Source of the DNA: Zygnema cylindricum
Lineage: Eukaryota; Streptophyta; Zygnematophyceae; Zygnematales; Zygnemataceae
Assembly: GCA_037447655.1 (NCBI GenBank)
Contig: JBBHKE010001564.1
Location: 116,183-180,182, forward strand
Length of the DNA: 64,000 nucleotides
Direction of reading: 5' to 3'
Shown here: piece after piece, positions 6,131 to 52,345 of the stretch
Numbering within the stretch: position 1 is the stretch's first letter
How the letters are laid out: each line of letters starts with the position of its first letter
The notes under the pieces: model-generated
Seen by the model: only the letters and a program-made list of their open reading frames with translations
Told to the model about the DNA's origin: nothing
The model's database searches: none
Made by a program: the position numbers and the translations under genes

Positions 6131-7783
6131 TGTATTTCCGGGATTATTATGAAATCATTGGTAAGTGCGCAGCCCAGCATGTGGAATCATCTCTCTTGCG
6201 CTCTCTGCCTCTTTCTTCTTCCCCCTTCATTTTCTCTTCCTCTCTATCCTTTAATCTCTCTCTCTACGAATTCTCCATCTCCCATATTTCTTCCCATTAA
6301 CCCTCCCTACCCTTTTCTCTTGTTCACTTCTTTCCAGTTTCTCTCTCTCTCCCTTTTTCTGTCTCATATCCTTTCTCTGCTTTTCTTTGAGAGTGGTTTT
6401 TTTCCTATGTTATTCTCTTTTTCGTTCTGTGTCACTCTCTGTTCTTCTTCTTTTTCACGTAATATTTTTCAAATCCACCTACCCCGTACTAATCTGTTAT
6501 ATATTTTTTTTCTTATGTATTATGAATTGTCATCGATGATGAGGATATATCCGACGGCCGGTTGTATTGTACAGCAGCCCACGGAAACATGCAATATAGG
6601 GAAGAATAAAACATCATGTTGGTGGTATTCGACCGTACGAAGGCGCATGGAGTATACCGTTAGGAGCTTTCTATGGATCTATATTTGTTATCACGGATGG
6701 GGGATACTTAGTTAGTGTGTGTAAAATATGAGGGTTTTTAAAATTATTTTTAGAGGATTTCCTACTTACAAGCAGAAACGTTAATACTTCATGACTATTT
6801 AGACCTTTGTTGACTACTGCAGATTAATAGGCCTTAGTTAGTTATATATTGTAATATTGTAAACAGAGTTTACCATGAAAAATAAAATTGATGTATTTCT
6901 TTTCCCATTGTTTTAATGAATGCTCGTGTTTGTGTCACCTTTTGGTGTATTTTCTATTCATTGTGTGTTTTATAATTGCTTTCATGTTGTTTCGTTGATA
7001 TTATCGCATTAAAATATATTTTCATCTAACTTGCATTTTTTTTGTTGTGGACATCTGTATATGCTCGAAATATGATTTTTATTTGTATTTTTTTACTTCA
7101 GACCGCGTATTTTTCTTCATCTTTGATTTTTGTGCATGAAATATTTTGGTTTGATTTTCACTACTGTATTAATGGTTTCAATCTAGCGAAAAAAGAGATT
7201 CTCGACATAGGATTAAGGATGTTATTTGATCACAATAAAATTAATATCCATGTAATTTAAAAACTCAAACTGTCTGAATCAGCGACGAAACAACCTTGGC
7301 GCTGAAAGGTTTCCACAAATGGTTCCATGATTGAATTCAGCGACGACAAACTCTGCTTTGTCGGAGATGGTGAGAACGTTGTTTTGTCGCTGAAATTCCT
7401 TCTAGCGACAAAACATACTTTACTTTCTCAAATATTATAACGATGTTGTGTAGTCGCTAAATTCCAGTTAGCGACGACATAGCCTCTGCTTTGTCAACTA
7501 TGATAATAATGTTTTTTCGTCGCTATACTAGGGTCTGTCGCTGAAATTCCTTCTAGCGACAAAACATATTTTTATTTCTGAAATATGATGACGATGTTCT
7601 GTCGTCGCTAAATTCCATTTAGCGACGACATAGCCTTTGCTTTTTGAGCTATGATAATAATGTTTTTTCGCCGCAAAATTAATGTCATGCGACGACAAAT
7701 TATCGTCGCTGCAAGAGCAACCATTATTTAGTTCGAAGAATATGGTGTTTATAAAAATGAGCACTAAAAAAATTTCGAGAAAG
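6131..7783. repeat. 1.65-kb duplicated segment, copy 1
   Basis: This segment is nearly identical to 12505-14149 in the same orientation. Homology starts at ATGTATTTCCGGGATTATTATG and stops just after TTTCGAGAA. It contains a CT-rich tract (about 6190-6450) and a cluster of AGCGACGAC/GTCGTCGCT hairpins (about 7290-7720). Copy 2 lies directly downstream (minus strand) of a pogo-like transposase, so copy 1 is probably the end of another member of that transposon family. The open frame at 6149-6715 is a translation of the CT tract, not a gene. Confidence 0.85.
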
Positions 7784-12504: not shown

Positions 12505-14149
12505 GTATTTCCGGGATTATTATGAAATCATTGGTAAGTGCGCAGCCCTGCATGTCCAGTCATCTCTCTTGCGCTCTCTACCTCATTGCTCTTCCCCTTT
12601 CATTTCTCTTCCTCTCTATCCTTTAATCTCTCTCTCTACGAATTCTCCATCTCCCATATTTCTTCCTATTAACCCTCCCTACCCTTTTCTCTTGTTCATT
12701 TTTTTCCAGTTTCTCTCTCTCCCTTTTTCTGTCTCAAATCCTTTCTTTGCTTTTCTTTGAGAGTGGTTTTTTTCCTATGTTATTCTCTTTTTTGTTCCGT
12801 GTCACTCTCTGTTCTTCTTCTTTTTCACGTAATATTCTTTAAATCCACCTACCCCGTACTAATCTGTTATATATGTTTTTTCTTATGTATTATGAATTGT
12901 CGTCGATGATGAGGATATATACGACGGCCGGTTGTATTGTACAGCACCCCACGGAAACATGCGATATAAGGAAGAATAAAATATCATGTTAATGGTATTG
13001 GACCGTACGAAGGCGCACGGAGTATACCGTTAGGAGCTTTCTATGGATCTATATTTGTTATCACGGATGGGGGATACTTAGTTAGTGTGTGTAAAATATG
13101 AGGGTTTTTAAAATTATTTTTAGAGGATTTCCTACTTACAAGCAGAAACGTTAATACTTCATGACTATTTAGACCTTTGTTGACTACTGCAGATTAATAG
13201 GCCTTAGTTAGTTATATATTGTAATATTGTAAACAGAGTTTACCATGAAAAATAAAATTGATGTATTTCTTTTCCCATTGTTTTAATGAATGCTCGTGTT
13301 TGTGTCACCTTTTGGTGTATTTTCTATTCATTGTGTGTTTTATAATTGCTTTCATGTTGTTTCGTTGATATTATCGCATTAAAATATATTTTCATCTAAC
13401 TTGCATTTTTTTTGTTGTGGACATCTGTATATGCTCGAAATATGATTTTTATTTGTATTTTTTTACTTCAGACCGCGTATTTTTCTTCATCTTTGATTTT
13501 TGTGCATGAAATATTTTGGTTTGATTTTCACTACTGTATTAATGGTTTCAATCTAGCGAAAAAAGAGATTCTCGACATAGGATTAAGGATGTTATTTGAT
13601 CACAATAAAATTAATATCCATGTAATTTAAAAACTCAAACTGTCTGAATCAGCGACGAAACAACCTTGGCGCTGAAAGGTTTCCACAAATGGTTCCATGA
13701 TTGAATTCAGCGACGACAAACTCTGCTTTGTCGGAGATGGTGAGAACGTTGTTTTGTCGCTGAAATTCCTTCTAGCGACAAAACATACTTTACTTTCTCA
13801 AATATTATAACGATGTTGTGTCGTCGCTAAATTCCAGTTAGCGACGACATAGCCTCTGCTTTGTCAGCTATGATAATAATGTTTTTTCGTCGCTATATTA
13901 GTGTCTGTCGCTGAAATTCCTTCTAGCGACAAAACATATTTTTTTTTCTGAAATATGATGACGATGTTGTGTCGTCGCTAAATTCCATTTAGCGACGACA
14001 TAGCCTTTGCTTTGTCAGCTATGATAATAATGTTTTTTCGCCGCTAAATTAATGTCATGCGACGACAAATTATCGTCGCTGCAAGAGCAACCATTATTCA
14101 GTTCGAAGAATATGGTGTTTATAAAAATAAGCACTAAAAAAATTTCGAG
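12505..14149. repeat. 1.65-kb duplicated segment, copy 2 (transposon end region)
   Basis: Near-identical to 6131-7783. Inside, about 13757-14055, a ~150-bp unit is itself duplicated. Each unit carries hairpins built from GTCGTCGCTAA and TTAGCGACGAC separated by a 6-7 base loop, and from GTCGCT/AGCGAC. The segment lies immediately beyond the stop codon of the minus-strand pogo-like transposase, so it is probably the 3' end region of that element, with hairpins as candidate transposase-binding sites (inference). Confidence 0.8.
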
Positions 14150-16954
14150 AAGGAGGATCAACAAACCACGAAGCATAGTCGTCGCTGATTAGGGTATGTT
14201 GTAAATTGCGACAAAATATAAATTTCCATAATACAAGCACACTGGAATGTTCAACACCACAATAACAACAGATGAAGGTAAATACATGACAATTTTGTAA
14301 CATATATCGAATTCCACGACATACAAGGGTTTTTTACTTCATAAAAAATAAAATCATATTTTCCCATATAAAAGACCATACACACATACGAAATCTGCTC
14401 TATCCTAAGAAGTCAAATAATACTGGACTCCTTGAACTGTCTACATTTATCTGGCACCAGTTTAACTACTATTCCTTCACTATAATTAAACTACCAACCC
14501 CAAACTAATATATATTAAAAAAAAAAACGCAATCAAGTATTATGTTTAAAACTCGTTGCCGCTCATCCCTCCCTCATTGAAAATGTTGTCTTGTTGACTG
14601 TCGGCATCTTCAATATTTTGGAGGAATTCCCTTGCCCTCGGGCATGGAGGTTCCACAGCTTCGCCTTCGAAGTGGTTGCGATATTTGCTGATTATGCCTT
14701 GCAGTTGTTGTGTGAGCATGTCTTCATCCCACTTTCCGTCGCGTAGAGACAAGCCACATTGAATCATGGCTTTTCTCGCATAACTCATTCTGTTTTTGTC
14801 TCTCATCGCATTGACCTCTCGGATGGAGTCCCTCGCCAATTTTGAAAAAACGCTTTACCGGGTCCAACCAATTTACCGGACCATCCACGGCTAGAAGGTT
14901 TAGCCCATTGACCGTTCTCAATTCCTTTCGCCTTCCAATTATCCCAAATGCGACTCCACACGTCCTTGATTTTAGAAATCACGAAGGAGTCGGCCGGTTG
15001 AACAAGATGTGTTGCATTAGGTGGAAAATAGTGTAACACGCTGTTCTTGGCCTCTAAAACTCGCTCCAACTCGTCGGACGTGTTGTGACCACCGCAGTTG
15101 TCCAGAAATATACTTTTTTGACATCCATCTCGATCCCCTTGGTAAGACCTTGCCTCTTCGACCCATTGTGGGAACACCTTTTTATCATTCCACCCCTTCG
15201 GACCGGTTCGGTAACAAACGCCTGCAAATATATATAATACACAAACAAAGGGAAAAAAAATATCATTTTGAAATGCTTGCTTACATATGCATTACAAGGA
15301 AAGTAAGCTACGTGTACCATAGAAACCTTAAAATATGAGTCATTACTTTAGATAAGAGAAATCAGAGTGTTAAAGAAGAAAAAAACCCTTGTTTTGTAGT
15401 AGGAGAAGGGGAGAGGAGGTATGCGAGAGCTAGGTAAAGAGATATACACAAAAAAATTAAACACAAAAACATGGTTAGAGATAAATGGATAAATCTCCGT
15501 TAAAGCCAAGAAGACATAATAGATATAATGAAAACATTAGACGAGGGAGAAAAAACACACCGGGGACGTTGTCCGGTAAACCTTGTATCGGGTAACTTCT
15601 TGCTCGATTTGCAAAAATTATCATTGGGTTCTCGATACGAGCGTTCATCCCTCCACTTAGTCGCACCATGAGAGTCATGGACTCGCCTCCTGCGGCAACA
15701 TCAGCGTATTTCACCACTTCGTCCCCTCTAAACCCCAAAGTTTTTCCATTATTGGTGTTGACTATCATGTGAGTTTCATCCATGTTTTCCATGAGGTATT
15801 TGTTCAAAAGTTCTGTTATACATTCGCCGCCAAGCCAAAACAAATGTAGTTATTTTGGGTTTACGCCGTCAAGTATGGAATAAAACGAAAACAATACACT
15901 AAAAAAAGGAAACGTCATTAAACTATATTTGTAAAGAAACTCACCGGATTCAAACCCCCGATTTAGAACGCCCATGTGGAAGACTACGGTACGCTCAATG
16001 TATTCCTCTTTCTCGGGACTACATTGTAGTTTCCCCTTTTGTGCACGCACAACGATGTTGTGCTTCTCTTGACAACTCTGCACCCACCTTTTATTTATAA
16101 TTGGATGTATTTCCAACTCGTCCTTGTTGAACCATTCCGGGCCGTACTCTTTCCTCCTTTCTCTTATTATGTCCCTAGCGATGTCCTTGAGAATTGTGGT
16201 GGACATCTTCATACCCGCTTTCTTAAAACGTTCGAAATCCGAAAGTAACTCCTCGTGTATAATTGTGACCCAAGCGGCTTCCTTCCTTCTTCGTCCCGGC
16301 AAAGCCTTGGTAACCGCCACCGATCTCGTCCCAAAACTAGAAGTAGAGAACGTCTGGGTTGTCTCTCGTATTCCGTCAAGCGTGGACCTCCTCTCTACCC
16401 ACCATGGCTTAGCCTTTTGGTACCCTGTAAACAATTAAAAATGTCAAAAGTATTAATGAGTTTCTTGAATGGAAAGTCGTATAAATAAATGAGACGACTA
16501 TAAGAGGAAACGACAATTTTCAGCGACAAAAATTTGCTGTCGCAGATTCAGCGACGAAAGAAACTCGTCATTATATCTGCAAAATTACATTTTTATTTAA
16601 CAACATCGTTGATACGTAGTAATCTGCCGACTGCCAATGAGAATTCCTCACTTCGCCGACGAACCAGCGACGACCTTGTGTCGTTGTTAAGCCGAGAAAG
16701 ATGAATAGCAAACACAATGGCGATATCAAAAATACCAAATGGACGACTAAAAGTCGAATTTAAATTCATTTTGTGAAAAAAAAAAAGAGAAATATTAAAT
16801 TCACACTTGCATGAATAAAAATAAAAAAAAATAACAAAACATTGTGGCACCCAATGTAGGCTGAGTGCTAAATCGGGGTACCTCTCCTTCGAATGAAGTA
16901 CACGAAATTGACCCTCGTCATCTCCCATCAACGTCGCCTAATGGCAGCAAGCTC

Positions 16955-31588: not shown

Positions 31589-34500
31589 CTAACCCGTTTT
31601 GACCTTTTTCTTTTTCCAAACTGACTTGAATGGATTCTTCTCTCGTTGTTGAACTCGTTTTCCCAAAATGTACATTAAAGACGCAAATGCATCTTTCTCC
31701 GCCAAAATGGGTGCCCATTTGTCCTTAACTTCTTGGGAATACGATGCCATAGGGTTGAGGGAGGAGCTCGCCCATACAAATCTCGTCCATACTTCGGCAC
31801 AAGCTTTTTGTTTTCTTCTTATGACATCCGGAGGGATGGCCCTCAGTATCTCGGCAATTCGAGGAATATCGTCTTTAGTGAGGACAACGGCAAACTCGTC
31901 CCAGTTGAGAAGATCGATTTCCAAGGCCTGAAACACATTGGGCTAAAAAAAGAAAGGCAAGCGTACACTACATATGCATATAAATTTTCCATATTATCGC
32001 GAAATCAACAGTGTCTTATACAGCACGAAAAGAAAGAATCAGACGACTCAACGATTGGAAGAGAGATAAAATTTGCCGTAACATGTGATGAGCCAAAAAA
32101 GAGGAGGATTACTTTGTATACAAAGCAATCACCTGTACATAATCATGTTCAAAAAAAGAAAAAAATACGATAGACAAAAGATAACCAAAAAGAGAAAGAG
32201 AAATGAACAGAAAAAGTGGAGAGTATTGTTTTACAGAGAAAGTACTTTGTCTTACCTGTATGACCACAGGAATGCACCCCAAAATGACCGACTGTGTGGC
32301 TCTCATGCCCCATCCCCATCCAGCCGGAGCAAAACAAAAAACGGCTTGCCGCATTTCGGTCTTAAAGTCTTGAATTGCAAACCCATCTGCGCCTATTAAA
32401 CGAATTCCCGTCTCATTCTCTCGATTCTCGTAGAGAGTAAACATCTTTTGTCGAACACCAAGACTCCAACTAAAACCCTCATCAGGTGACTCGGGCCTCG
32501 AAAGAGCAGAAAAGCCCTTGAAATAAAGCAAAGTTGTACGCTGGTCTTGTCCTGTAGGAGAGGCCTCTGTCCCGTCGTTTATAATCTCCTTTAAAAAAGG
32601 GACGTGTTGGTAAACATCGGGTGGCATACAAGGAGGCATAACTATATCGTTCCCAACTATGAAACACGGGTCCTCATCTTTTATCGCCATATTTTTCGTA
32701 TGACCCCACAATGTAATGGTCAACATATTGCCCAAGTGAGATCCCCGAACCCCAAACACTCCAACCTCACAATTTCCCCAATCGCCATTCGTCAACACAA
32801 AGTGATCTGAACCGTCGGATTCATTCCAGTATGGCCAATGTTCTTTCACATAAGATATGGCCCAACCAAGAGTAGCTTGCACTTTGCCTACACGAGACCT
32901 GTCAGATGTCCATATATAGAAAATAATCATGTACATAAACAGATCGATGTTAACCATAGACATATATCTGGTGATAGACATATGATCTATTACCTTACAT
33001 TTATCCTCTTGTTGTAAACAATAATCCTCAAATTGAAGCCCAAATCAAGGAAACCCATCCAAAAGCAAAAAGAGGTTATTACCTTAAAATAAGTGGTATG
33101 TAGAAATAGTCTGCCTCATTTGGATCAGCTGTGCGGTGGTGGCTTGTTAAAATCCTCTCCAGAAAATAAATCTGCTCTTGATAGTTCAAATACCCGAAAT
33201 GCTGGATATACCAAGTATTGAAATATCCGGGCAGTTCATAAACATATATTTTGGGTGTGACCTCCTCCGTAGGATTCCATATATGTTCGGGGACAGCGTT
33301 CGACCATGAGAACAAAGGTTTCACTATCACCCTGCAATGGTAAAAGTTATAACAATTTTAAAAATCATAAACAATAGAGGAACGAAAATAAACATTGGCA
33401 ATGACAGGTAAATCAATTGCTGGCCGTAAATTCTCCATCCCATGTGCTTTACTTTTTTAAGTACAGTAACATATCCTATTTGAAATACAAACCCTCGAAG
33501 TTTTGGTTCCATTAAGGGCGGACTAAAAGCCATGTTTTAACCATTTTTCTTTCATTGACTTTATCGCGATATCCAACATGGACAACCCCACATGGATAAA
33601 ATCCCAATACCCAAAAATCCTCCCCGATTAGCATCACTAAATGAACTGAAAGTTAGAAATGAAAATGCACAAATGGATGAAAGACCCAAATCACCCAATT
33701 TCATAGCTCTTGCTATATAAAAAAATTGACTATCAAAAACCCGTCCGTCTCCATTATGGAGTAAGGTACTCAAACATTAGAGGGGGTTAAGACTAACTAG
33801 ATATTGAGATGTACACATCAAAATAGTCAATTATCTCCAAAATCTCCATCCTATGTAGATAAACTAATGTTGTGTATCGGCAGGGTTTTGCCGATAATCG
33901 ATATGTACCTTTTTTTGGCTTGCCGATAATCGATATATTGAAACTGGTGTTATCGCTGATAAAAAACCGATTCACCGGTACCGATTACTATCGGCAATAA
34001 TTGTACGGTTTATCCTGTCGTACTGAACCGCCGTTATTCCGTTACACAGATTACGGAACAGATTTTTACACGTGGCGTGCCACGCTATATACAGTGAAAA
34101 ATACAATACAGTATATTATAAAGTACTATAATATAGTGTACTATACTTTTCACACCTATCGCCGATAAGGAATTAGTTGGTCTCGGACCCCTGACCGTTC
34201 GATAACCGATAACTATCGGTATCGGTGTTATCGCGATAAAGTTCTTGCCGATACACAACACTAAAATATACACACATTCACACATACACACGAAACACGC
34301 ACACACACACACACACACACACATATAACTCTTACACCACATTGATGTCAAAAAGCACCTGGTCTTGAACCCAATGTTTGAGGCAACAAAACACATAGTC
34401 TAGCCCCATTGGGAAGCGTATATGTACATCTGTCTGTACCACAAAATCAGGGATTTTGATTTGGGAACTTTTGCACACAAGTTGAAATCTCCCACAAAAG

Positions 34501-37500
34501 TAAGGAAACAAAACAAACAATACCTAGGACAGAACCTTACTCTGTACGGCCATCAGGGCCAATGGAGAGAGCGCAATCGAGCCCGAAAAATCCCTTATTG
34601 CATTTGCAGATACCATAAAAACATTCTCCGCGGCCGTTGCAGTCATTGTAACAGTTGAACGGAACGTTTCCGACTTGGCTGCATCCGTAACTGTTGTAAG
34701 CCCACGTACACCTGACAGAGAGCCAGAGAAGGTCATCTTCAAATTCTCAGTAAGAGGTAATGCAAGGCTCAGACCTATACGGGAAGGAGAGGGCCAAAGG
34801 AGGTCACCTTCCTCTTTTCCCAAAAAGAGATAGTACAACAAATCCTCCACGGGACACAGCTGAACAACTGCCATAAGGGACAGAGAGCAGGAGAAAAGGG
34901 ATAGGGTATTGCAAGATAAAGAGAGAGATCAAACCAGCACCCAGCATCCTTGGTGCCTTGTCTCAATAAGAAATTGAAAAATAGAAAGGACATACCAATT
35001 TCATTTAAGTCCCAGCCCATTCTTACGAGCAATAATTATCATTTTTGAAGCAGACGCCACGGCCTGAACAGTTCAATGGACAGTCAAAGGGGCTTGCTAT
35101 GTCATGCCTCCATTCATTCTCCGGAATCTTCTTTCTTGGTTCAATTTCATTTCCCAAGTCATCCGTAGCGAAATACACTTCTGGATGGTTCAACAGTTTG
35201 CGTATATCAGTCTCAACGGTTCCATCCTCTCGCTTTTCATCAAAGCAACGATCATCTGTAAATAAACGGTAACTGGCACATTGCAGTTTACATGCACAGG
35301 AGGACATATAGAAACAAGGAGTGTAGTGTCCAGGCTCAAAGTGGCAGGCAGGAAACGCCAAATCTTCACATGTCGGACCAGCGTAACTTCCTTTACATTC
35401 ACATAGACCTGTTTCTTCGTTACAAGTTCCGTGGTCCAAGCATCCGACAGGACAAGTTGTGTGCGCTTCATTCATAGCTTCTTTAAGCTCCGCATCTTTC
35501 GCTTCCCCAGTCTCCTTCCTAAATCTGCGAGGTAAAGTGATTGCATGCATATACTGCTCCTGCTTCTCCACAGAGGCTTTTTTCACCCAAAGAGATGCAG
35601 TGTCTCTCAGTCTCAAACGATTCCCGAGAATCTCCATCACTGACGACACCACATCCTCCGATGCCAATTTGGGTGCCCAAACGTTTTGCACATCTTTCGA
35701 GTAGGTCTTTAGAGGATTCAGAGAAGGGCTAGTCCACACAAATCTGGTCCATATTTTAGCACATGCTGATTGTTTTTCTGCAACGGTTTTTGTTGTGACT
35801 GCTCGCAAAACTGAATCGATGTGAGGGACGTCCTCTGGCTGGAGAATCACAGCAAAGTCCTTCCACTCCAGGTCCCCCTCAAAAGTCTGCACCACTGAAG
35901 GCTGTCCCTCTCTCCTCCCCAAAATCAGTATTGGGTCTCACACTTGGCATTTGACAAGTGACTTTGATATGGTTATTGACAATGAAACAGACAGCAAGCT
36001 GAAAGTGACAAAGAGATGAGCATTTGAAATTTTGTATTGACATTAACATTGACAGTTGACATTTTTATTCTGAATGGCATTGACACTGGCATGATCGAGG
36101 ATGTTAGTATTTAAAATATAAAAATTAGCATCCGGATTATAAGTTTGGCACTTGACAATTGACGGTCAGTATTTAAATTAACATTTGATGCATGAACGTG
36201 ACATTTACCACTTTAACACCGAAGAAAACACACTTGAAATCGACATTTACATCATGTTGTCTAATTTCAAACTAAAGCGGCTTCAAAACCCATCTCTCAC
36301 TTACTATGACGTTATCCCACTCTTTTGAAAAAACATTCCATATAAGCAGACACACTACTATCCTTGCCAAGAAAACATAAAAGACGTTGAACACATTTGT
36401 TGAAATATTGACCCTCCCTCCTAACCACGTTACAACATCACAAAAAAAACCTCAAATCGTTAAACCACGTCAGAACCATAACCGAGCTCACCTGTATGAT
36501 AACAGGGATACAACCCAGAATGACTGCTTGTGTAGCATGCTCACTCCATCCCCACCCACTTGGAGCGAGGCAAAAAGTTGAGCGCCTCATTTGGAGAAAA
36601 CTATCATTAATATCCAGAACTCCCTCATTGGTTTCCAAGTAAATGCCAGTCTCATTCTCACGGCCGCCGTAAAGTTGAAACATTTTTTGTCGCACTCCAA
36701 AGCTGAACTCATATGGCCCAAAAGGATCAGCTCCCGTTCCATCTGAGCCCCTGAAATAGAGTAACCATCTCCCTCTCTCTACGTCCTCGGACTCTTGTAA
36801 GTAAGGCACATGTTTATACAAATCTTCCCTCATTACTGGGGGAATTACAATATCTTTTCCAGGCTTGAAACATGGTCTATCATCTTGAAGCTTCATATTA
36901 CGAAGGTGGCCCCACAGTGTCAGTACGATCACGTTATCCAGAAGTGGCTCAGAAAATCCATATTCTCCAACTTCACAGGCTCCCCAATCTCCATTCTCCA
37001 CAATGATGTGGTCCCTTCCCTCATGTCGTTCCCAAAATTTGGGCCATGTTCCTTTCACATACTCGATAGCAGCTAGAAGTGCAGATTTTGCACCGCCCCC
37101 TCGATTTCTGAAAGGAAACAAAATTTAAAATAAATAAACTTCAAGACGCCTACAAGTAAACGTACACTTCAAAAAAACCATTGAAAGCCAAAATCGACTA
37201 CGGTTAATCGTGATGCAAAAGGCCGTGAGTTCGACTTACCTGTGAATAAGTGGAATGAAGAAGAAATGAGCTTCTTCTGGATCCGAAGTTCGGTACCCAC
37301 TGGCCAGGAGGCGTTCTATGAAGTAAAACTGTTCCAACCAGTCCATTGTTAGCGAATGTTGGAATTGCCAAGTATTGAAATACTGTGGAATATCATACAC
37401 ATAAATTTTTGGATAGAACACGCCTTCTGAAGGGGAAGGTTGTAAGGCATTTGCCCATGGTAAGGGTGGTCGCTTGATTAACCTGAAATCACAAAAAGAA

Positions 37501-40500
37501 GCAAAAACAGCAATAGTTACCAACTTTCCTCGCAACTTGGTGCCAAAATCATGCACAAGATAGTTCTAGATGTAAGCCACTATGCTGGGGTTTATTCACA
37601 AAAAATTCAAGAGAGTTTGCATATGTAAGACACCGAGCAACACCGGTTCCAGATTTTGCAATTTGATAACAGTTAAAACGCTCTCACTGGAGCAGTGACT
37701 CTAACGTCTGCATGTAAACACACCTGGGGCATTTGTCTTTGCCAAAATACAATGCGCAATCAATCCCAAAAAAATCCTGATTGCATTTGCAAGTTCCAGT
37801 AAAACACTTCCCATGGCCACTGCAATCGTTGAAGCACGAAAATGGGACAACTGTCGATCCTCGAAAATCAGCAAATTCTGTTCCGATTTGGCAGCTGTCA
37901 ACCAGAGAGGACACACAAACTAACGTTGGTACTTTCGTGTTAAATCATAGAAATGGAAAATTCTAAATACTTCGTAGAAAGAAAAAATACTCAAATACAA
38001 CAAAAATAGGCTCTTCAAATACTTTTGCCACAAATTCCAATCTGTGCGGATGTGTTATCATAGATAACAGATAAAATTGGAGCGCATGTTAACAGAAGAT
38101 GACAGGTAAGAATCATATAAAAAGACAACCACTAAAACTGTGCGTAACTTGAACCACAGACAAGCAGCAGCAGAACATTGAAAGGAAACGCGACTTGTGG
38201 ACAAGTAGCCCGGATACTTTTAAGTAAATGTGAATGTTGTTTGCAAGGGATTTCAGAACATGGGAACTATACATGGGAACATGGGAACGGCAAAAGATAT
38301 CTAATCATTTCAACCGCCTTTCATTTACTCAAAATGACAGTATTGAGCGACGTACTTCAAGCTTTGTTGATCTCCCAACCGTATCAAACAGTCGGCATTG
38401 ACAAAACCTGGATGGCGATCACACTTTTTAGAACAAGAGTCGACATTGGAGGGTCCAGTAGAATCAGCGTTTGCAAAGTGTTCTCTTCCATAATCCCACA
38501 GACACCTGTCATTTTAGATCAATTAACACACTTGAATATTAGTGTTTTACCCATCAAGCATCAGTCTAACATTTTCTTATTCTGTTACAGTGCAGTTCAA
38601 AGTAGGACAAGTTCCTCATTTAGCAATCGGATTGCCAGATGTAAATGCAACCTGTTAATGACTACCAATCCCTGCAAATTTTTCGCAAGCCCTGATAAAA
38701 TGCATAAAAAATGGCAGAGGAACAACTCACGTACACCATCCTGCCTCCTGATGGGAACAGTTTCCTTTACAGTCTTTTGACTGCAATTTGAAGACCTCGT
38801 TGATGATTGACACACGTTCTACTTCCTGGCCATTTTCGTCAAACTTGATTCTTGCCTGTGGTCCTTCATACAACTGTTGTACATCTGTTTTTATGCTGCC
38901 ACCTGCTCGCTGCTCGTTAAAGCAAACATCCTCGTGTAGAAAATGGTAAGCTTCGCATTCTGCCACACAGGCACAAGATGTCGGCAAATGACAGGGAGTG
39001 TGGTGACCTTTACTTAAATGGCAAGAAGGCATGGCTAGTTCTGCGCACATGAGACCTTTGTAGCCTCCCAAACACTGACAGACGCCCAGTTCCTCGTTAC
39101 AAGATCCATGGACACACACTTGCAGGCATTTGTTATTCCGTTCCTTTAACTTGTGTTTTAACCGTCCACCAAGAATTAACGTGAGAGTAGCATGAACATC
39201 CTTGACTGCAAGAAGCGGTACCAAGTTCCTTTGTACATCTTTGGCCAGCTTGGCAAAAGGATTGTACTGAGGAGAGGACCAAACAAAATGCATCCAAATT
39301 TTGGACAAATTTTCGCGTATCTGCTCAACTTCCATAGCGGGAATAGGTCCCAAAATATCTTTAATTCGCGGTAAATCATCAAATACAATTTGTATGGAGA
39401 GCTTTGACCAGGGAAGAAGATCGCCTTCAAATGGCTGGACAAGTCCTTGCTGCATCAGACAGGAAAACAAGTTGAAAATCAGGTCCGGCAATAGTGATTA
39501 TAATTCTAGAACATATATCAAAAATGAAATGTGGATGGAAATTTAGATCGAACGATACCACATTAGTAAAAAGAATACAAGAATTCAAAGAGTGGAATAA
39601 CGCTGGCAAAGTTTTCTAATGTGTTCCTATTGAATTGAAAAATTCTCATTTCAAACTGTCTTGCTGAAAAAGTACTAAACTAAACAGCTCACAGCTGCCG
39701 GCTTGATAAAAAATTGGCTAACTGCTGGATTGCTGAAACGTTCGGACTTGAACAAGCGAGCAGTTGTATGGAGTTGAACTTCTGAATTGCTGAAATTGCT
39801 CAACTTGCTGAAAAAGTTATCTCTGCAATACTGACATATCCGGTCGACAATGTGATGTGACAGCTACAAGAACTGATGTCATCTGTCCTTTGACATGTCA
39901 CTACCAGCTGACTCAGCTACCAATCAACAGTGACACCCGTACGCCCCCGATGCAACGCCAGGGACGACACATAACAGAAGAGTTCAACGGCCAGGATTGA
40001 GCGAGGACAGGTGTTGCAATCTCCATGCCAAATCCACGTGAGTCAGGAAAGCTTTTTATGTTAATTTTCAATCTTTACATCACTTCAGAATAGGAGCTCG
40101 AATTTCATGGTTGTGACACATACAGGCTGGACGTTACTACCCTTAACTTTTACATGATTGAGACAAATCCTTTTGCATGTTTACTGCATGAGGGTTCACA
40201 TCAGTTTGAACCTCCTGTCCAGAAACTAAAAGTTTGTAAGGTCATACTCCACATGATTATGCCTATTTTCCTTCCATAGGTTGCGTGATCGTGGAAATTA
40301 CCTTCTTTAGTCAAAGTTTCATGTCACTTCCATGTGCTAAGCAATATTCGTTAAGTTATTAGTATTCATGCCTTTAATTGTTTTTTTACTTTCAACTAAC
40401 CTGGATCACTACTGGAATACAGCCCAAGGACGCCGCCTCTGTTGTCCGAATTTCCCAATTCCATCCACCTGGTATCAAACAGAATATAGATCTTGACATT

Positions 40501-43500
40501 TCCTTCAGATGACCGTTTCCATTGTCCTCCTTTTCTTCTTCCGTTACCTGTATTCCCGTCTCCCTTTCTTTTCCATCATACAACTCGACCATTCTCTCGT
40601 GCACTTTCATACTCCATGTGAACGGCTCAGAACTGTCATGTCCCCTGCCTCTTCTCCCTCTATGATACAAGAGAATAGTCCGAGCAGAAACTTGCCGAGA
40701 TAACCCTGCAATCCATGGTGAGAAGGAATATAGTTCTGGATCCAGAATTGGAGGCATAACTATATCCTGGCCTTTTATGAAGCATGGTTGCATCCCCATC
40801 TCCTCAGGCGTGTTTTCATTTTCCATTCTCCCCCTCAAAGTAATGGTTATGCTTCTGGTCAACAAGGAGTCTACCTTCGTTTCCCCAGAAACTCCACACT
40901 CTGCCCATTCTCTTTCAGCTAAAAAAATGTGGTCGGCGCCGTCAAACTGATTGTAATATGGCCACATGGAACTGATATACTCAATGGCCCATTTCAACAG
41001 CGCTTCCTTCTTTCCTTGCCGGTTTCTGCCAAGGTGGACATCTTAAGCGGAGTCAAGAAGAGTCAAGAAAAATCAAGCTGAGACAAACGGAACAAAATAG
41101 TTGGAGTTCAAGGGAACATAATCAGTTACACTATTTTATTCACATTTGGAATCTTACTAGAATCCAGTTTCTGATACCCAAGCATCTGGCTTTCTCTATC
41201 TTTAGGATCATCAATTACAAGTCAAAATTCGTACCCCTTACCAACTATAATTCATATTGTCAGTCCTCACAGTTTTCTCTATATGCGTCATCAACCGACA
41301 ACGGCATTCACCCGATTGCATTCTCAAGGCTTACCTTAGAATAAGGGGCACATAAAAATAATCAGCCTCCTCTCCTTTCAGAGTACGATATGGACTCGCC
41401 AACATTCGCTCCACAAATAAGAGTTCCTCCGGCCCATCTAAGGAAGGTGAATGGGCAAACTGCCACGTGTTGAATTCTCCTGGCAGTTCATACAATAAAT
41501 TCGTGGCTCGAACACGCGGCTCCCTTTATAGGAGGAGGGAATGATATCCGACCAGAGATATGGTGGGCTAGAGATTCTTCTGCATAATTAGCCAGTAAAG
41601 TAAAGACAGGTGTCACATCTAACGAGACATTCCAAATGAAAAATTCCAGAATTGGGGACCTTCCTGTTTAACAAATGTAAGAATCTTGCATATTTGCAAC
41701 TTATTTCAACAAACATCTACAAGGTCATGGACACGACAGTTGATTCATGGTTTTGTTCGCAATAATCTTACGCGACTTCATATCCGATCAAGCTCGAATA
41801 GAAAGATAAACACTACCACACCATCACCATCAAGCTTTGGAACAGGAAATTCACAACTTATTTTATTTTAGGTGGATGATTTGAACCATTGGAAGTACTT
41901 TACAATTGAAGAAAATAAATAGTGACGAATATTCGATTAATCTCCATGTGATTGCCTTTCGCATCACTTTTACAGACTTATTGCCTTAACAACATGTCTT
42001 CATCAAAAATACAAAACAAAGTAAAGCTCCGTCATTTGTAAATGAGCTTTAAATATAATTTGTACTAGAGTAGGACAAGGGAATTCTTTAGAAAAGAGTC
42101 CATGAAAGACTTAAGTAAAAAAAGAGCATTGATGTCTAAGCAAAGGAAGGATCGATAAGGGTGAAACCTTACTTCCAATCTCCATGCACATAAGCTTCGA
42201 TAACAAGCTCATAATGGTCCATATTTGTACCACATATGAAATGACTAGAAGTCATTTTCTGGTTACTTGTACAATCTCTGTTGAATTGGTAAGAGATTTG
42301 GAGTTCCCAATCAATATATATATTGGAGTACTTCTGAACCGATCATTCAAAGCGTAAGTGCTTGGCTGTTACAGTGACTTGCGTTGTTCTCTAAAACTAA
42401 AGAGCATTCGTAAAAACACCCATAAGCGTCAAAGCTAAATATCCGCCTACATGACAGCCCCAAAAGACGTGCTTTAATACAGATAATGCTTTAATGCCCC
42501 AACCAGGATGCTAACTAAAGAAGAATGATTCTATATTCCCATACTTTGTCATATACATCTGTTGCATTGTATGATGAATATACCAGGTGTGATTTGACTT
42601 ACTCAGTTAAACCATCCTGACCCTTGAAAAGAGAACAATCAGCTCCAAAGTAGCCTCGATGACATCGACACACGAATCCTTCACAGTCTCCATGGTTACT
42701 GCAGTTACTTAGGCAATGGAACAATACTGGACGGGATCCAATTTCGCAAGAATCGCCTCTCCATTCTGGTGCACACCTGTTCAAGCAAACAAGAGAAGGT
42801 TGGGTAACATAAGCCTACTATGTCCTTGTTTCGTCTCCATCCGCTGCTTTGCCAAGCATACAAAAAGCTTTTGCACAGCGTACGAAATGGTAAATTTATC
42901 GCTTGTCTTTCCTCGTAAAAAAAATGTGCCATAGGAAAAGTTCTTCTAGAAGTGAAGATTCAAAAAGTTCGCTCCGACAACATGAGGATGTTACCAGGTT
43001 TAGCCTAAGGCATACCACTATTTTAGTGGATTTCTTCGGATGTTTGTCTGCTTGCTAATGATGCTAATCCAACAGTGTCGCTATGCCGCCACCCAGTTTC
43101 ATGTGCCAAAGTCCAACTCATGTGAAAGCTAAAAGTGTTTCACAAAAATTAGCTTCAAAACCATCATATGGACTTGATTTTTATTTAGTTTAAATCATGC
43201 AATAAATGGTGATAAGCGCATGCAACGCACTTGTAAATCATTTTTTTCCGTCTGCAGCATGCTGGACAAAATAATCAGCCGACAACATAGTTTTGGTCGG
43301 AATTGTTAATTTCACCCAGCAATGACATTTGGTTTATCCTCGGTGCACGTGTGGATCGTCGTTAGTGCTAACAATAACTGTCGGCTTTCAGGGTAAGGTC
43401 TAGCACACCGCCCTGTAGTTTTAAGAGTTAATGAATTAATGCGTTAACACTTCATTATAAGTAACTCGAGTAAATTATGATTAGCAATGTGGCTCATTTT

Positions 43501-45679
43501 AGGCCACTTAACAAAATAGTGGTATTACCATTAATTTATGATTTTGGGTAAAAAAAACACTCACTCGAACTAGAGCGATGAACTCTAATAGCAATGGGCA
43601 GTGTAGCGTTTGTTGGGATTTTGATCAAAACAGGGCAATCAATGGCTAACAATCTTACCTTTTGCTTGCCAAAACCAGTCAAACGTCTGGCCATTGTAAA
43701 ATGTAATGAATAAAAAAATCTGATGATGACGAACAAGAACACTTTTCAAGTACCCATTTCACGACACCAATAGCGAAGATGAGTGTAATTGTCTTGGAAA
43801 TCCTGTTTTTTAAGTATAATTATTTCAAATTTTTGGCGCCCAACATCGACATGCGACATATCAATGTATTGCAATGCAGTGTCAAAATTTGGCAGTGATG
43901 ACATTCGCAAAAAATGGTGAAGCTCGATGTGCGAAGAACATCCAATGTGAAAACTTCGAAAGACTTTCAACATCAACCGCCAAAATTTTGTTAGCACATA
44001 TGTTTACATGATGACAATCCAATCCACACATTATTGTGTGGTCATTTCCGAAACAAGTATACTTCAAATTGACTACTTGAGCGGAAAAATCTAACAATTT
44101 CCTTCTGAAAGCAAAAGAATAAACTCAAATTAATCATACTAAAGAGTGTTGCAGGGCTATAACACTATTTTAGTGAAGTGGCCCGTAGGGAGCCACATGG
44201 CAAAACATGAATTAGTGTGGTTAATTGTGACAAAAGTGTGAACTCTAAAAATTCACATACTCTTATACAGGATTTAGTGTGGTTGGTGCTAACAATGTGT
44301 AAATGCTAAATGTACCATGTTGCCTCAAATCCAGCAGGAGACTTAGAACTTGCTACATGGGATGACCTTAAGTTTTTTAACAACAAGCTCATACCAGAAA
44401 CTAAGGCATATTCTTTGGAGGCATTGAAACATACAAGATCCAATCAAAGTGGTAATTTGAACAAATCCACATTGGAGCATCACTTACTTAGCTTTCAATC
44501 ACATTCATTCTGACAACAGATGGTCACATTGTGCTTCACAAATTCAGTGACATCAGTGACATCACTGAATGTTAATGTAACCTTAGAATAACACAGCTTT
44601 TCATGTGATTTCCTCATTGTTATACTATAACAATAAATGTAAAATAATCAAAAATTCTTAGCACTTCCTTGTTGTTCAACTTTAATCATTCTTACAAAAT
44701 GCAAGTTCCTTGCAATTGACATGCAATTCAAATTAGATCATGGCTCAAATGAGCGAAACAAATCGGGAACGCTGTAAGTGGTTACACTTTACGCGTTATG
44801 AATACGGTGCAATAGAAATTTCAATTGTTTTCTCACATTTGAACTATGTTCTGATTCATTACTAGCCAATCTTCATTCAAACAAAAGTGACTCTTTTTTC
44901 AACCTCATTTCATGTCACAATCAATGTTTCAATGTTTCAATCACAATGCAGAATGTTCTCAGCTTAGTTATTTCCAGCTCATCTATCTAATGGAAGTTGC
45001 TGCAATCAACATAAAACCATGTAAGGGATATCCAGCATGCAGTATCAAAGACAAATTTGGAATTATCGAAGCTCTTACGCGCAAGTACGGCTCTCCGCCA
45101 AACAAAGTCCGCGGCCGCGACACATGTGTGGACACTCCGTCGGATTGGTGTACGGCCTCTCCATGCGCTCCGTTCCGTTTACAATCTCCCGCTCTCGCGT
45201 TACCTTGCCGCGACCGTCCGTGTGAATCCGAACCTGAGGCCGTCCGTACAGCTTCGTGACATCCGACTCGGTCTGCCCGTCCTCGGTTCTCTCGTCGAAA
45301 CACACGGCGCTGTACGGAAGGCGGTACTTGTCGCATTCCAGACTGCAGGCACAAGACGACGCCGCGGGACAGACTGCCACGTATCCAGGCGCCACGTGGC
45401 AGGCGGGCATCGCCACGTCAGCACATGCTGTGACCAGTGAGGACCAGTGAATCCACTGATGCAATTGCAATGTCCGTTTTCCTCGTCACACGTGCCGTGG
45501 CCGCCTTCCCAGCATCCTTCCGTACACTTCGTCTCCAAAATAGGCATCGAGAGTGCCTCATTTTGGCGAAGGTTCGCCGCGTCAATGTCTGCCAGAGTGG
45601 TAAGAGAGCTCCACCAGAAGTACGAATAGGCGAACGCAGCGAGTGCAAAGACGGAGAGGCAGGGGATCGCCCAGTACAG
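31589..45679 (-). CDS. Three-module EGF-GT47 (exostosin-family, ExAD-like) glycosyltransferase
   Basis: Fourteen exons (minus strand): 45679-45079, 42776-42603, 41579-41335, 41025-40401, 39449-38731, 38505-38380, 37894-37724, 37482-37240, 37107-36492, 35901-35027, 34711-34541, 33331-33083, 32898-32256, 31942-31589. Splice phases match throughout. The product is about 1,940 residues. Order: hydrophobic signal-anchor (ALAAFAYSYFWW), then three repeats of cysteine-rich EGF region followed by a GT47 domain with PKIYVYELPG, ADYFYIPL, NGDWG.CEVG, E.ETGI and G.G.(A/S)..LGCIPV(V/I)IQ. Land-plant ExAD has one such unit and arabinosylates extensin in the Golgi; the substrate here is unknown. Exons 5 and 10 join the end of one GT47 domain to the next EGF region without a stop. 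Exon 6 end (38380) is the least certain. Module 1 carries two frameshifts (about 45440 and 41495). No in-frame ATG was found at the start, where a MITE is inserted; the first in-frame ATG is 45547. Confidence 0.82.
33865..34263. mobile_element. hAT-type MITE in intron 11 of the GT47 gene
   Basis: TIRs TAATGTTGTGTATCGGCA and TTGCCGATACACAACACTA bound 399 bp. Flanking 8-bp sites AGATAAAC and AAATATAC match at 6 of 8 positions, a decayed hAT target duplication. The family matches 61730-62551. Confidence 0.8.
34298..34322. repeat. (CA)n microsatellite in a GT47 intron
   Basis: About twelve CA repeats directly follow the hAT MITE. Confidence 0.95.
35601..39142 (-). other. GT47 gene, module 2 (EGF, GT47), intact
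   Basis: Rest of exon 5, exons 6-9 and the first ~100 codons of exon 10. It begins CVHGSCNEELGVCQC without any signal peptide or start codon. It has one exon more than the other modules (exon 6, encoding CLWDYGREH... and CSKKCD), followed by an EGF (CSGHGKCFTGTCKC). The GT47 core (exons 8-9) has KIYVYDIPQYFNTW, AHFFFIPLIH, NGDWGACEVG, NETGIYL and LGCIPVIIQ. No stop or frameshift seen. Confidence 0.85.
39143..45679 (-). other. GT47 gene, module 1 (signal anchor, EGF, GT47)
   Basis: Exons 1-4 and the first ~102 codons of exon 5. The anchor (45679-45600) precedes a CTEGCWEGGHGTC-type EGF and a cysteine-rich segment. Exon 2 holds a second EGF (CSNHGDCEGFVCRC); exons 3-4 the GT47 core (GEFNTWQFAHSP, ADYFYVPLIL, LGCIPVVIQ). 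Two indels break the frame: a 2-nt surplus where two GACCAGTGA copies sit side by side (45431-45450), and a 1-nt loss at 41493-41500. Exon 1 is visibly richer in CpG and GC than the other exons. This module may be inactive. Confidence 0.75.
43406..43603. mobile_element. Degenerate TA-family MITE in intron 1 of the GT47 gene
   Basis: Starts CACCGCCCTG and ends AATGGGCAGTG followed by TA. The interior matches 25320-25505 and the 197-bp subfamily (TAGAGCGATGAACTCTAATAG). Confidence 0.6.
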
Positions 45680-45681
45680 TA

Positions 45682-45897
45682 CACCGCCAATCGCTATTAG
45701 CGTGTAGGTTTGATTAGCGTATACTATTATTTAGCGTGGTGTACGCTAATTGGGAATTTGGAAATTTTGGAAGAAATCGATTACTCTAATTAGGAATTAG
45801 GGCTTTTTTAAATAGTGTGGATAACTCTATTTGAGAATAAAAACAAAAAAAAGCGGGACGGGATTAGCGTACACAACGCTAATAGCGATTGGCGGTG
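45682..45897. mobile_element. TA-flanked MITE at the 5' end of the GT47 gene
   Basis: A 216-bp element with TIRs CACCGCCAATCGCTATTAG and its complement, and TA at 45680-45681 and 45898-45899. On the minus strand it ends one codon before the Leu that opens the GT47 signal-anchor. Reading upstream through it meets a TAA and no ATG. Confidence 0.9.
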
Positions 45898-45983
45898 TAG
45901 TGGCGTCCGGACCGCGCCATATGACAGGAAGTTCGGGAGATCTAAAGGAGGCCGCAAACATTACATTACTGTACAGTGCTGTA

Positions 45984-46486: not shown

Positions 46487-46650
46487 GCGTGACTTGTGCG
46501 ACGACAATCGTCGCCCGATGCGTGACTTGTGCGACGTCAATCGTCGCCCGATGCGTGACTTGTGCGACGGCGATGGTCGCCCGATGCGTGACTTGTGCGA
46601 CGGCAATGGTCGCCCGATGCGTGACTTGTGCGACGGCAATCGTCGCCCGA
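46487..46650. repeat. 33-bp minisatellite, five copies
   Basis: The unit starts GCGTGACTTGTGCGACG and ends TCGTCGCCCGAT. It is repeated five times with variation confined to a few bases in the middle. Each unit can fold around CGACGNCAATCGTCG. The array begins directly after the MITE at 45984-46484 and is GC-rich against AT-rich surroundings. Confidence 0.95.
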
Positions 46651-48057: not shown

Positions 48058-51000
48058 TCAATGTGAGGATTTATCACTAGGTTTCATTTGAAGACTTAAT
48101 CTCTCAGGTGCTTTTCCCTTATTCTCTCGATTACTCCTCCTAACAACCACTTCTTCTTCCATTACATTCTTTTCACTCTTTTCAGAAATTGATGGCAAAC
48201 TCTTTTCACTATTTTGACTTTTAAGATAATTTTGAACTCTCAGATTTATCATCGCTCAAATTGGATTCCAAATTAATTTTATCAGAATTTGAAACTTCAC
48301 CAAATTTCGGTTTTCGTTTTGGAGTCTCATAATAATCGTTTCCCTCATCCGACGAATCCGCCACTTTGAACTCCTCCAAACTATTTTCTTCTTCAAAATC
48401 CAAGCTTCGCTCCTTATCTTCCGAATATTCCATGGCCGCCTTTAAATTCTCGTGGAAGTCAACATTCCGTGACTCCACTACGTTTCGCGTCACAGGATTG
48501 AAGATCCGATACTGATTCGAATTCGCACTATATCCGACAAAAAATCCACTCCAACTTCGTGGACTAAACTTGCCGGTCCGTTTGTTTCGGTCAATATATA
48601 CGGTCGCACGACAACCCCAAATTCTTAAATGTCGTACGGACGGAACCCGTCCACTCCAAAGTTCTTGAGGCGTCTTTTTGCCAGATATCGAAGTCAATCT
48701 TCGATTACACACATAGTTTGCCGTGACTATGGCTTCTCCCCAAAACGAAGCATTTTGATTCGTGCTATGAAACATCGCACGCACCATTTCCTGCAACGTC
48801 CTGTTTTTCCATTCGGCCACTCCATTAGATTCGGATGAATAAGCGGCAGTAAATTGTTGTTTAATTCCTCGCTCCTCACAAAACTCCTTAAATGCGATAA
48901 ATTCTCCACCATTATCCGACCTCACGGCTTTCAATTTTCTGTCCGTTTCCCTTTCAGCCATCACAACAAACTTCTTAAAATAATCCAAAGTCTTTGACTT
49001 CCTTTTCAAAAGATACACCCAACTCTTACGAGAAAAGTCATCAACAATCACAAAAATATATCTATTTCCCCCAAGACTCCTCGGCTTAATAGGTCCACAT
49101 AGATCCACATGAATAAGTTCCAAAGGTTGACTCGCTCGAAATTTTACATTTTTGACAGGATGAGGTTTCTTCTTTTGCTTCCCTTTGCTACAACCATTAC
49201 ATCCATTCACCTTTTCTCCGGTCGCCAATTCCAAACCTCTCACCGAAGAATTCTTAATCATCCTTTTAATGTTTTCCTCCGAAGTGTGGCATAACCGATG
49301 ATGCCAAAGGCTAAGGTCGCCTTTCTCCATCTCCACTGAAAACATAGAAGGTTCCTCTTTAACCGGCCGTTTCCAAATAAACTTACTAACCAAATTATTC
49401 GACACAAATCCTTCCCCAATTTGAATTCCTTCCTTACTTTTAATCATGATTCTAAAATCCTCCAAAGAAATAACTCTACCTCCGGCCTTTTTAATTTGAG
49501 GAACACTAACCAAATTCACCACTCCATTAGGAATAAACAAAGCGTCATTCAACTTAGCTTTATGCACTCTAACATTTCCAAATTTATCTCTCACCGGTAA
49601 ATCAATTCGGACCGTTCCAACCGTGTCCACCGGAATCACATGTCCACTCGCAACCGTGACATTCTTTGGAACCATAAGCTTCCTTGTATCCGAAAATAAA
49701 CTTAAATCCGTACACACGTGATGAGTTGCGCCGGTATCAATAATCCAATCTTTTACACAATGATAACTAGAAGCCGAATTCAAAATTGCTCCGGTTTTTT
49801 CGTCCAATAAAATAGTCAAATTGTAAAATCGCTCCTCAATATCTTTTTCAAATTCCGTATAATTTCCTTGATATCCGGATCCTCTTAATTAGCCACGACC
49901 GCGTCCGCGTCCTCGGCCACGTCCTCGTCCATGTCCTCGATTGTCATAAAAGGAAGAATTTTTGCCTTCTCGTTGGAAACAATGAGAACTCACATGTCCC
50001 CACTTATGACAAATATTGCACCTCTTCTCCTTATCCGGGCACTCGGCTGCAAAATGCCCAACCTTATCACATTTGAAACAAGTCACGTTAGAGGTGTTAG
50101 ATTTATCAAATTGACCTCTACTAAATCCAACATTTTGACTTTTTCCTCTACCTCTTCCTCTAAAATTTCCTCTAATACCCCCTCTTCCTCGGAACAAATT
50201 TAAATCCGGGGAATCCAAGGTATTTACATTATGGATTCCACTACTTTCAAAACCTCTACCTATACTCTCTCTAGACTTCTCAATGGACTTCAAATAATTC
50301 ACCGCATACTCAAGTGTAGCCTTCCGTTTAGATTGAATTATTTCACTAGACATAGAATATCTTTCCGGTAATCCCTCTAAAAACACTTGTAACTTTTCAT
50401 TTTCAGGTACAATTTTACCAAGACTACTCAATTGCTCCAACAAAATATAAAATCTTTTGACTCCATCATCTATTGACTCATTATGCTTAAACTTAAACTT
50501 AATGAAATCTTTGAACACATAATTTGCCTTATCTTTGACTCCTTTCTCAAAATGATTTTCTAACGCTTGCCAACATTTATGTGCGGTATCATGAATAAGA
50601 AAATAATCATGAACCGATCCGGTACAACTTTGAATCAATCCATTCATGGCCGCCTTATCTTTCAATCTCCACATATTTTGTGTCTTGGGATCTTTTGGCA
50701 TTTTCTCCTTGCCGTTGACGATCTTCCACAACTTCTTCAAGATGAGACTCGCTCTCATGTTCTTTTTCCAAATAGCGTAGTTTGATCCATCAAAGATAAC
50801 CGGCTTGCCTCCCATTCGAAAATCTTCTTCTCCTTCCAACTCACTATCAAAATCAAAATCCTCTTCTATCTTTTTCTTTTTCTTTTTTTTACATTTTTCA
50901 TCATCATCCGAATTATCTGAGCTGCTACTAGAACTAGAGCTAAAGCTGCCCTCCAATTCCTCTTTCACCAAAACATTTTCCTTTTTCACCTTTTTATCCT

Positions 51001-51265
51001 TTTCCTTCATAAATTTCTCCCACTCCTTATAAGTGTCTCTATCTAACCGAATGTCATAACTTTCCTTCTCTTTAGGTTGATCCAATCCGAAGGGTTTAGC
51101 TGGCAATGACTCATCGGACTTTGGCGCAATTCCTTCACCGAAAATGAATTCTCGTTCGCTTGGACCCCGAAGAGATGGCTCGGGAGTCGGCGGAGTTCCC
51201 GAGGTCCCCATAGGCATCCTCGGTCCGGATGGAAAGGGTGTGTTCTTCTTTTTCTTCCCTCCCAT
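48058..51265 (-). pseudogene. Ty1/Copia retrotransposon gag-protease-integrase, no reverse transcriptase
   Basis: Minus strand from 51265: a gag polyprotein of 458 residues with a UBN2/retrotran_gag-like capsid region (FRMGGKPVIFDGSNYAIWKK) and two CCHC zinc knuckles near the end (CFKCDKVGHFAAEC, CNICHKWGHVSSHC). After an in-frame TAA (49891-49889) the same frame continues into an aspartic protease (WIIDTGATHHVC) and an integrase with the HHCC motif (LWHHRLCH, CNGCSKGK), the D-D-E core (HVDLCGP, VRSDNGGEF) and the GKPR-like SGKKTPQELW region. The frame ends at 48221; an overlapping frame (48252-48058) supplies the linker RRSNRENKGKAPERL and stops at the polypurine tract. Reverse transcriptase and RNase H, which normally come next, are absent, so the copy cannot replicate on its own. 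Confidence 0.9.
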
Positions 51266-51294
51266 ACCTAACTCACTCGATCCTCAATGTGGAG

Positions 51295-51359: not shown

Positions 51360-52345
51360 AGTAATACAAAATATATAGATTAAGCACTTCACTAATACGA
51401 GATATGCAGGTTAAGCACTGTATTAATACTAATTATACAAACTAACAACTGTTCAAATTAATAATCACACAGACTGATAACTGTACTTATACTAGATATT
51501 CATGCTAATTATTTGTGTATTATCTGTATCAGTCCAGCTATTAGTACGTATAATCAGTATTAGTAAAGCTATTAGTATGTGAGTACAGTTATGAGTTTGT
51601 ATCATCAGTTTTGGTACAATTATTATTCTGTAAAATTATAATTAGTACAATTATGAATTTGTATAATAATTATTAGTACAGTTTTTAGTATGTATAATTA
51701 GTGTTTTATAGTTAGTAGTTTGTATAACCAGTATTGGTTGAGTTATTAGTTTGTATAATTAGTATTAAAACAATTAAAAGTCTGTATAATTAGTATTGAT
51801 ACAGTTATTAGTCTCAATAATTAGGGCTGGTACAGTTATTAATAGTGTTTAATTAGTATTAACACGGTTATTACCTTGTATAATTAGTCTTAACACAGTT
51901 CTAGTTTGTATAACTAGTGTTTTTACAGCTATAAGTTTGCATAATTAGTACGAGTATAGTTATTAGTCTATACAATGAGTGTCAGTGCAGTCATTAGTAT
52001 TGTATAATTAGTATTATGACAAATATTATATAATCAGTATTTGTAAAGTTATTTGTATGAATATATTGATTCAGTTTTTTGTATGTATAATTAGTAGTAC
52101 TATTAGTATAGTTTTTAGCATGTATAGGTAGTGTTAGTACAGTAATTAGTTTGTATAATCAATATTACTACTATAATTAGTCTCTATAATGAGTTTTAGT
52201 ACAGTTATTAGTCTGTATAATTAGAACAGATATTATTATGTATAACTAGTGCAGACACAGCTCTGTACCAGTACAGTTGAACCAGTACAGTTCTTTGTCT
52301 GTGTAATTAGCATTATGACATTTTTAGTTCGTGCAATACTAACCA
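51360..52345. repeat. ~1-kb AT-rich degenerate minisatellite
   Basis: Variants of ACAGTTATTAGTTTGTATAA and TTAGTATTAGTAC recur about every 30-45 bp for nearly 1 kb, directly upstream of the Copia primer-binding site. Stops occur in all frames. Confidence 0.8.

Follow-up and report, generated by a model that had tools for sequence, protein, structure and literature searches.

Whether one algal gene can carry several glycosyltransferase units in series, and whether such a gene would still be at work, is the question raised by a locus in the conjugating green alga Zygnema cylindricum. The window analysed here is a stretch of 64,000 nucleotides (nt) from this species (assembly GCA_037447655.1, contig JBBHKE010001564.1, positions 116,183-180,182 of the forward strand), and its minus strand holds a gene with three consecutive modules, each made up of EGF-like parts followed by a GT47 (exostosin) domain. 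A preliminary description of the window took this gene to encode an intact Golgi enzyme with several active sites on one chain. The architecture that it proposed stands and is of interest, whereas the intact processive enzyme does not stand for the window gene. As judged from sequence, the fused multi-module architecture is real and recurs in the same genome and in other conjugating green algae, and the copy in the window is probably a pseudogene that no longer works as a whole.

Three EGF and GT47 modules joined by two fusion exons

The evidence for fusion lies in two exons that cross the module boundaries. Exon 5 (38731..39449) joins the C-terminus of the module 1 GT47 domain to the EGF-like start of module 2, and exon 10 (35027..35901) does the same for modules 2 and 3. 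Both are open across the junction, as originally described, and the probability of stop-free read-through by chance, from base composition alone, is ~6e-7 for exon 5 and ~3e-8 for exon 10. Exons 4-14, when spliced, read through 1,604 residues free of stops. The frame preceding exon 5 stays open for just 16 residues and that preceding exon 10 for 12, and no start or anchor was found in introns 4 and 9 in the frame directly upstream of these exons, although the search of other frames and of small separate exons was not systematic. The claim that modules 2 and 3 have no start or anchor of their own thus holds with regard to an anchored start, but in-frame ATG codons do exist inside exons 5 and 10, and exon 5 contains a moderately hydrophobic stretch (hydropathy of 1.55 over 19 residues, compared with 1.61 for the window anchor in exon 1). 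This stretch aligns with the C-terminal portion of GT47 in the other modules and is therefore more likely to form a helix of the domain core.

The modules are mutually homologous (BLASTP: 37%, 39% and 43% identity; E values of 1.9e-142, 8.4e-162 and 0.0) and each matches PF03016, the GT47 exostosin model (2.8e-25 for module 1, for which the query began in exon 4 and comprised exons 4-5 only, 7.4e-37 for module 2 and 4.9e-39 for module 3). Alignment reveals a pair of cysteine-rich parts in every module. Those of module 3 include a match to PF07974 (38.1 bits versus a cut-off of 22.1), the EGF-like matches of module 2 fall slightly below their cut-offs (21.7 versus 22.1 bits and 22.4 versus 24.3 bits), and the EGF-like parts of module 1 were judged by alignment only. 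Two EGF-like domains N-terminal to GT47 are a feature of the ExAD-like GT47 proteins of clade E, which have a single such module per protein; since three are present here, we file the window protein as a variant of ExAD-like GT47 and not as ExAD itself. No GT64 model was found among the Pfam matches up to E 0.001, and the protein contains GT47 repeats only, which sets it apart from the EXT/EXTL proteins.

Our gene model, rebuilt from the splice sites, has 14 exons and 13 introns, all with GT/AG borders, and confirms the reported arrangement of three units on one strand with exons in matching phase. Exon 1 (45079..45676) carries the anchor segment and the first EGF-like region of module 1, exon 2 (42603..42776) the second EGF-like region, exon 3 (41335..41579) the start of GT47 and exon 4 (40401..41025) the remainder; exon 4 is open, with degenerate conserved positions. 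After fusion exon 5, module 2 continues with exon 6 (38356..38505), an extra cysteine-bearing segment confined to this module, exon 7 (37724..37894; EGF-like region), exon 8 (37240..37482; GT47 start) and exon 9 (36492..37107; remaining GT47). Module 3 follows from exon 10 with exon 11 (34541..34711; EGF-like region), exon 12 (33083..33331; GT47 start) and exon 13 (32256..32898; remaining GT47), the module without deviation at conserved positions, and exon 14 (31589..31942) encodes the C-terminus and stop codon.

Module 1 of the window copy is disrupted

Module 1 carries three lesions, described here alongside C953, one of three paralogous loci in the genome. The start ATG homologous to that of C953 lies at 45918..45920 and is now cut off from the anchor segment by a MITE-like element (MITE, miniature inverted-repeat transposable element) at 45677..45902, which sits within exon 1, has 27-nt terminal inverted repeats (arms 45677-45703 and 45876-45902, 96% complementary) and is absent from C953. 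The gene start had been placed at 45679, a position that falls inside an arm of this element, and has to be moved to the ATG at 45920; reading from this ATG meets a stop at codon 14, within the element. In C953 the ATG is directly followed by a hydrophobic stretch (1.86 over 19 residues), whereas in the window the anchor codons are separated from it (anchors being assigned by hydropathy only). A 221-nt query from the element matched, over its full length and with 98-100% identity, the window itself and at least 39 further genomic places (best 40 of 2,969 candidates). Dozens of full-length matches at this level indicate that the element belongs to a young and numerous family.

The second lesion is a frame change in exon 1 (~45426-45439) inside the first EGF-like region, which looks like an imperfect tandem duplication of ~11 nt. 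A candidate 17-nt intron with GT...AG borders can be seen by eye at this break but was set aside as too short to be credible. The third is a frame change in exon 3 (~41493-41494), the length of which (245 nt) violates the phase-2/phase-2 pattern. C953 is open at both places. A full reading of 1,941 residues is obtained only if an X is placed at both breaks. With the element insertion and two frame breaks in module 1, the ~1,940-residue protein is not encoded by the window DNA as it stands, and on account of these lesions we reject module 1 as an intact enzyme.

The surroundings of the gene are rich in repeats. A 33-nt unit is tandemly repeated five times (95% matches) upstream at 46487-46650, with several more inverted repeats between this array and the ATG. 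Just beyond, at 48221-51283 on the minus strand, are two long open frames that by eye resemble the gag and integrase of a Copia-type retrotransposon, and an A-T-rich array with a 31-nt period (~21 copies, 67% matches) occupies 51571-52224. Elsewhere in the window, 7385-7674 and 13755-14056 are two separate tandem dimers of apparently one 151-nt unit, and a 194-residue open frame of unknown kind is present at 15850-16434 on the minus strand. The main text of the genome paper for Zygnema cf. cylindricum SAG 698-1a_XF reports 359.8 Mb in 3,587 scaffolds, with 29.8% Copia and 11.6% MITE (PMC11096116); the words GT47, exostosin and glycosyltransferase are absent from that main text.

Close paralogues are damaged at different places

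A profile search with PF03016 over the genome (352.8 Mb, 2,689 contigs), on which the locus count rests, gave 56 matches and identified three more loci with three GT47 domains in a row: C953, C1796 and C2410. C953 shares 76-93% identity with the window gene by stretch and has an intact exon 1, with ATG and anchor, but carries one nonsense codon in exon 5 (end of module 1) and one in exon 8 (module 2). C1796 is 84-95% identical over longer stretches and 74-79% over two shorter ones; its exon 10 carries frame-shifting indels, and the contig breaks off within exon 4 (module 1). Exon 6 is kept in both loci, as are most of the unusual residues of exon 4. Within the readable sequence, the three close copies, the window gene included, are thus all damaged, each at sites of its own. 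C2410, a more distant paralogue, is open as far as readable, over 12 exons and 1,763 residues that include three GT47 domains and both fusion exons intact; a similarity search of C2410:1-24000 found no exon 1.

Nei-Gojobori estimates of dN/dS over exons 4-14 were 0.36 for window-C1796, 0.40 for window-C953 and 0.36 for C1796-C953. For exon 4, which holds the degenerate GT47 part of module 1, the values for the same pairs were 0.40, 0.24 and 0.28, and hence module 1 was constrained although its conserved motifs had already changed. Such values average over the entire period after duplication and are no proof that any copy functions at present.

Predicted multi-module proteins in other conjugating algae

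The preliminary description suggested looking for EGF proteins with multiple GT47 domains in other streptophytes, and such proteins are predicted in Closterium (three modules) and Mesotaenium (two). The first protein search, with the 1,604-residue reading as query and words from residues 210-1604, returned seven proteins. They include a gene model of 1,631 residues with two modules from Mesotaenium endlicherianum (ME000147S01071) and two Closterium models with three modules each, CLOP_g9376 (2,517 residues) and Naga37s-1 (2,041 residues), all of which show 32-45% identity to the query in the best local alignment. Modules were counted by EGF starts; the corresponding numbers of PF03016 stretches are two, four and three, and such counts can split one domain, as in the single-module protein P0006. 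Two further Closterium models with multiple GT47 domains, P0005 (NIES-54) and P0010 (NIES-53), continue into DHHC or LRR domains, fusions that may be gene-model artefacts.

P0003, 1,026 residues long and encoded on a contig of 3,211 nt, thus has no introns over a span that begins inside one GT47 domain, passes through an EGF part and reaches the end of the next GT47 before its stop. A second search, with an alignment as query, scored the 7,993 candidates sharing most words and gave 11 proteins, three of them already known from the first. P0008 and P0011, TRINITY transcript assemblies in EukProt, start inside the GT47 domain of the preceding module, P0009 starts in the C-terminal tail of the preceding GT47, and all three run on into an EGF part and a complete GT47 domain. 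As cDNA-like sequences from other species, they speak for transcripts that cross module boundaries; P0003, P0008 and P0011 have the end of one GT47, the EGF part and the next GT47 on a single open reading frame. A third search produced 14 matches (four already known, six new with GT47 and four with EGF domains only), from which P0016 was read and P0017 aligned. The proposal of a single gene is thus borne out for the fused architecture, given that C2410 is open at both boundaries and that proteins and contigs of relatives cross them, but not for one intact reading frame, as three lesions interrupt the window copy.

A probable origin by duplication of an exon cassette

Except where module 2 has its extra exon 6, the modules agree in intron positions and phases, and what is repeated is an exon cassette flanked on either side by a phase-0 intron. 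The summed lengths of 1,899 nt for exons 5-9 and 1,938 nt for exons 10-13 are both multiples of three. Since the cassette is bounded by phase-0 introns, its duplication keeps the frame and creates a fusion exon automatically. The family probably arose by in-frame duplication of a cassette that comprises the GT47 C-terminus with the first EGF part, the second EGF part and the two GT47 exons (GT47a and GT47b); each added cassette would join its neighbours in frame, and no new start or stop would be needed.

In a tree of 23 modules, modules 1 and 2 of the window gene pair with the modules of the same number in P0003 (96/93 and 97/93, respectively), whereas module 3 groups only weakly with P0008 (80/55). 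Of the 20 inner branches 11 are open, so that the tree gives no order for the older duplications. Both the tree and the position counts below exclude P0005 and also the three modules of P0004 (Closterium Naga37s-1), which had been aligned. The tree holds a single land-plant row, from wheat, and no other GT47 clade, and its deep forks are open; we take the wheat row to be ExAD-like from its layout of EGF and GT47 parts.

Degenerate modules and the likely state of the window copy

The proposal of several active sites acting processively has the conservation of the modules against it. At 68 conserved GT47 positions, module 1 of the window deviates at 9, module 2 at 3 and module 3 at none, and modules 1 and 3 of Closterium NIES-67 deviate at 13 and 14. 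In four of the five fully covered multi-module proteins, one module retains all the conserved positions while another degenerates. On this pattern of conservation, one or two active modules supported by pseudo-GT47 scaffolding are favoured over a processive enzyme with three sites.

The explanation that best covers these data, and which we consider reasonably likely as a whole, is that the window gene belongs to a zygnematophyte family of ExAD-like GT47 proteins with multiple modules, of which one or two are active and others act as scaffold, and that it is in decay and probably a pseudogene. If intact, members of this family would be type-II proteins of the Golgi lumen, anchored once at the N-terminus and carrying two or three successive modules. 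The one or two modules that keep the conserved GT47 residues would transfer a sugar, by analogy with ExAD most likely L-arabinofuranose or a related one, onto wall glycoproteins, and degenerate modules may serve as scaffold or acceptor-holding domains, comparable with those GT47 domains in animal exostosins for which donor binding is considered unlikely. The window copy, with module 1 disrupted by the element and two frame breaks, could give at most an unanchored fragment of modules 2-3.

Several points weigh against this interpretation. The pseudogene call rests on one assembly, and the two frame breaks could be assembly errors. The window copy keeps its splice sites and the frame of exons 4-14, and an alternative promoter after the element is possible. 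Values of dN/dS well below 1 speak for past constraint on all modules and do not date the loss. The Closterium NIES-53 multi-module protein has no deviation-free module, and the arabinose and wall-glycoprotein substrate is drawn from distant homology, at 24-25% identity to the wheat ExAD-like relative. A more far-reaching version, which we regard as doubtful, holds that zygnematophyte Golgi proteins with two or three ExAD-like GT47 modules act in turn on one wall glycoprotein, with some modules for sugar transfer and others to hold the acceptor, as a covalent assembly line built by duplication of cassettes, of which the window copy is a decaying example.

Other explanations are less likely. 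A shortened but functional protein of modules 2-3, expressed from an internal promoter, would use the 1,604 open residues of exons 4-14, the deviation-free module 3 and the in-frame ATG codons and hydrophobic stretch of exon 5. It is nevertheless unlikely, as the frames upstream of exons 5 and 10 are soon closed and provide no anchor, and the exon 5 stretch aligns within the GT47 domain of other modules. Still less probable is a Golgi enzyme of ~1,940 residues that is intact and uses three active sites to build or extend a glycan processively, its lesions being assembly errors or bypassed: the open exons 4-14 with their splice sites, the reality of the family architecture and past purifying selection on all modules agree with it, but the element between ATG and anchor, which has dozens of near-identical places in the genome, is not a base-calling error, two more frame breaks affect the same module, and that module has departed from the GT47 consensus at nine of its conserved positions. 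Tandem duplicates are common in plants, and three ordinary, separate ExAD-like genes in tandem might appear fused. We consider this highly improbable, since both boundary exons are stop-free, modules 2 and 3 lack an anchored start, C2410 shows the same open boundaries and P0003, P0008 and P0011 carry two GT47 parts and an EGF part on one open reading frame; the open fusion exons and boundary-crossing contigs largely refute it.

Comparison with known systems

No description of multi-module GT47 proteins was found in open-access papers on ExAD or GT47 in streptophyte algae or on multiple GT47/exostosin domains per protein, as judged from titles and the starts of abstracts, which is weak evidence of absence. 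The statement that no protein with this layout had been described is thus upheld for the papers searched, although sequence databases already hold the Closterium and Mesotaenium models. Such a family would add a new arrangement for the glycosylation of wall glycoproteins and would clearly illustrate how domains can be gained repeatedly through symmetric phase-0 exon cassettes, with some copies later evolving into pseudo-enzymes. Because the copy in the window is broken, the window is less important than was first supposed.

Among the closest known systems is ExAD (At3g57630), which with the ExAD-like proteins belongs to GT47 clade E and has a wall-glycoprotein substrate (Moller et al., 2017; PMC5371791). 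ExAD proper transfers alpha-Araf to Hyp-Araf3 and is located in the Golgi. Like ExAD, a type-II protein, the window gene specifies an EGF-like region and then a GT47 exostosin domain, in its case after one putative anchor segment; unlike ExAD, which has one such module per protein, it fuses three, and its present copy is broken. The Closterium models CLOP_g9376 and Naga37s-1 and Mesotaenium ME000147S01071 resemble it in carrying EGF and GT47 modules serially on one predicted protein. These models differ from it in sequence (32-45% identity) and in the stronger degeneration of modules 1 and 3 of NIES-67, and are uncharacterised gene models. The animal exostosins EXT1, EXT2 and EXTL3 combine GT47 with GT64 (for the structure of EXT1/EXT2, see PMC9178029), whereas the window gene joins GT47 to itself and to EGF-like parts.

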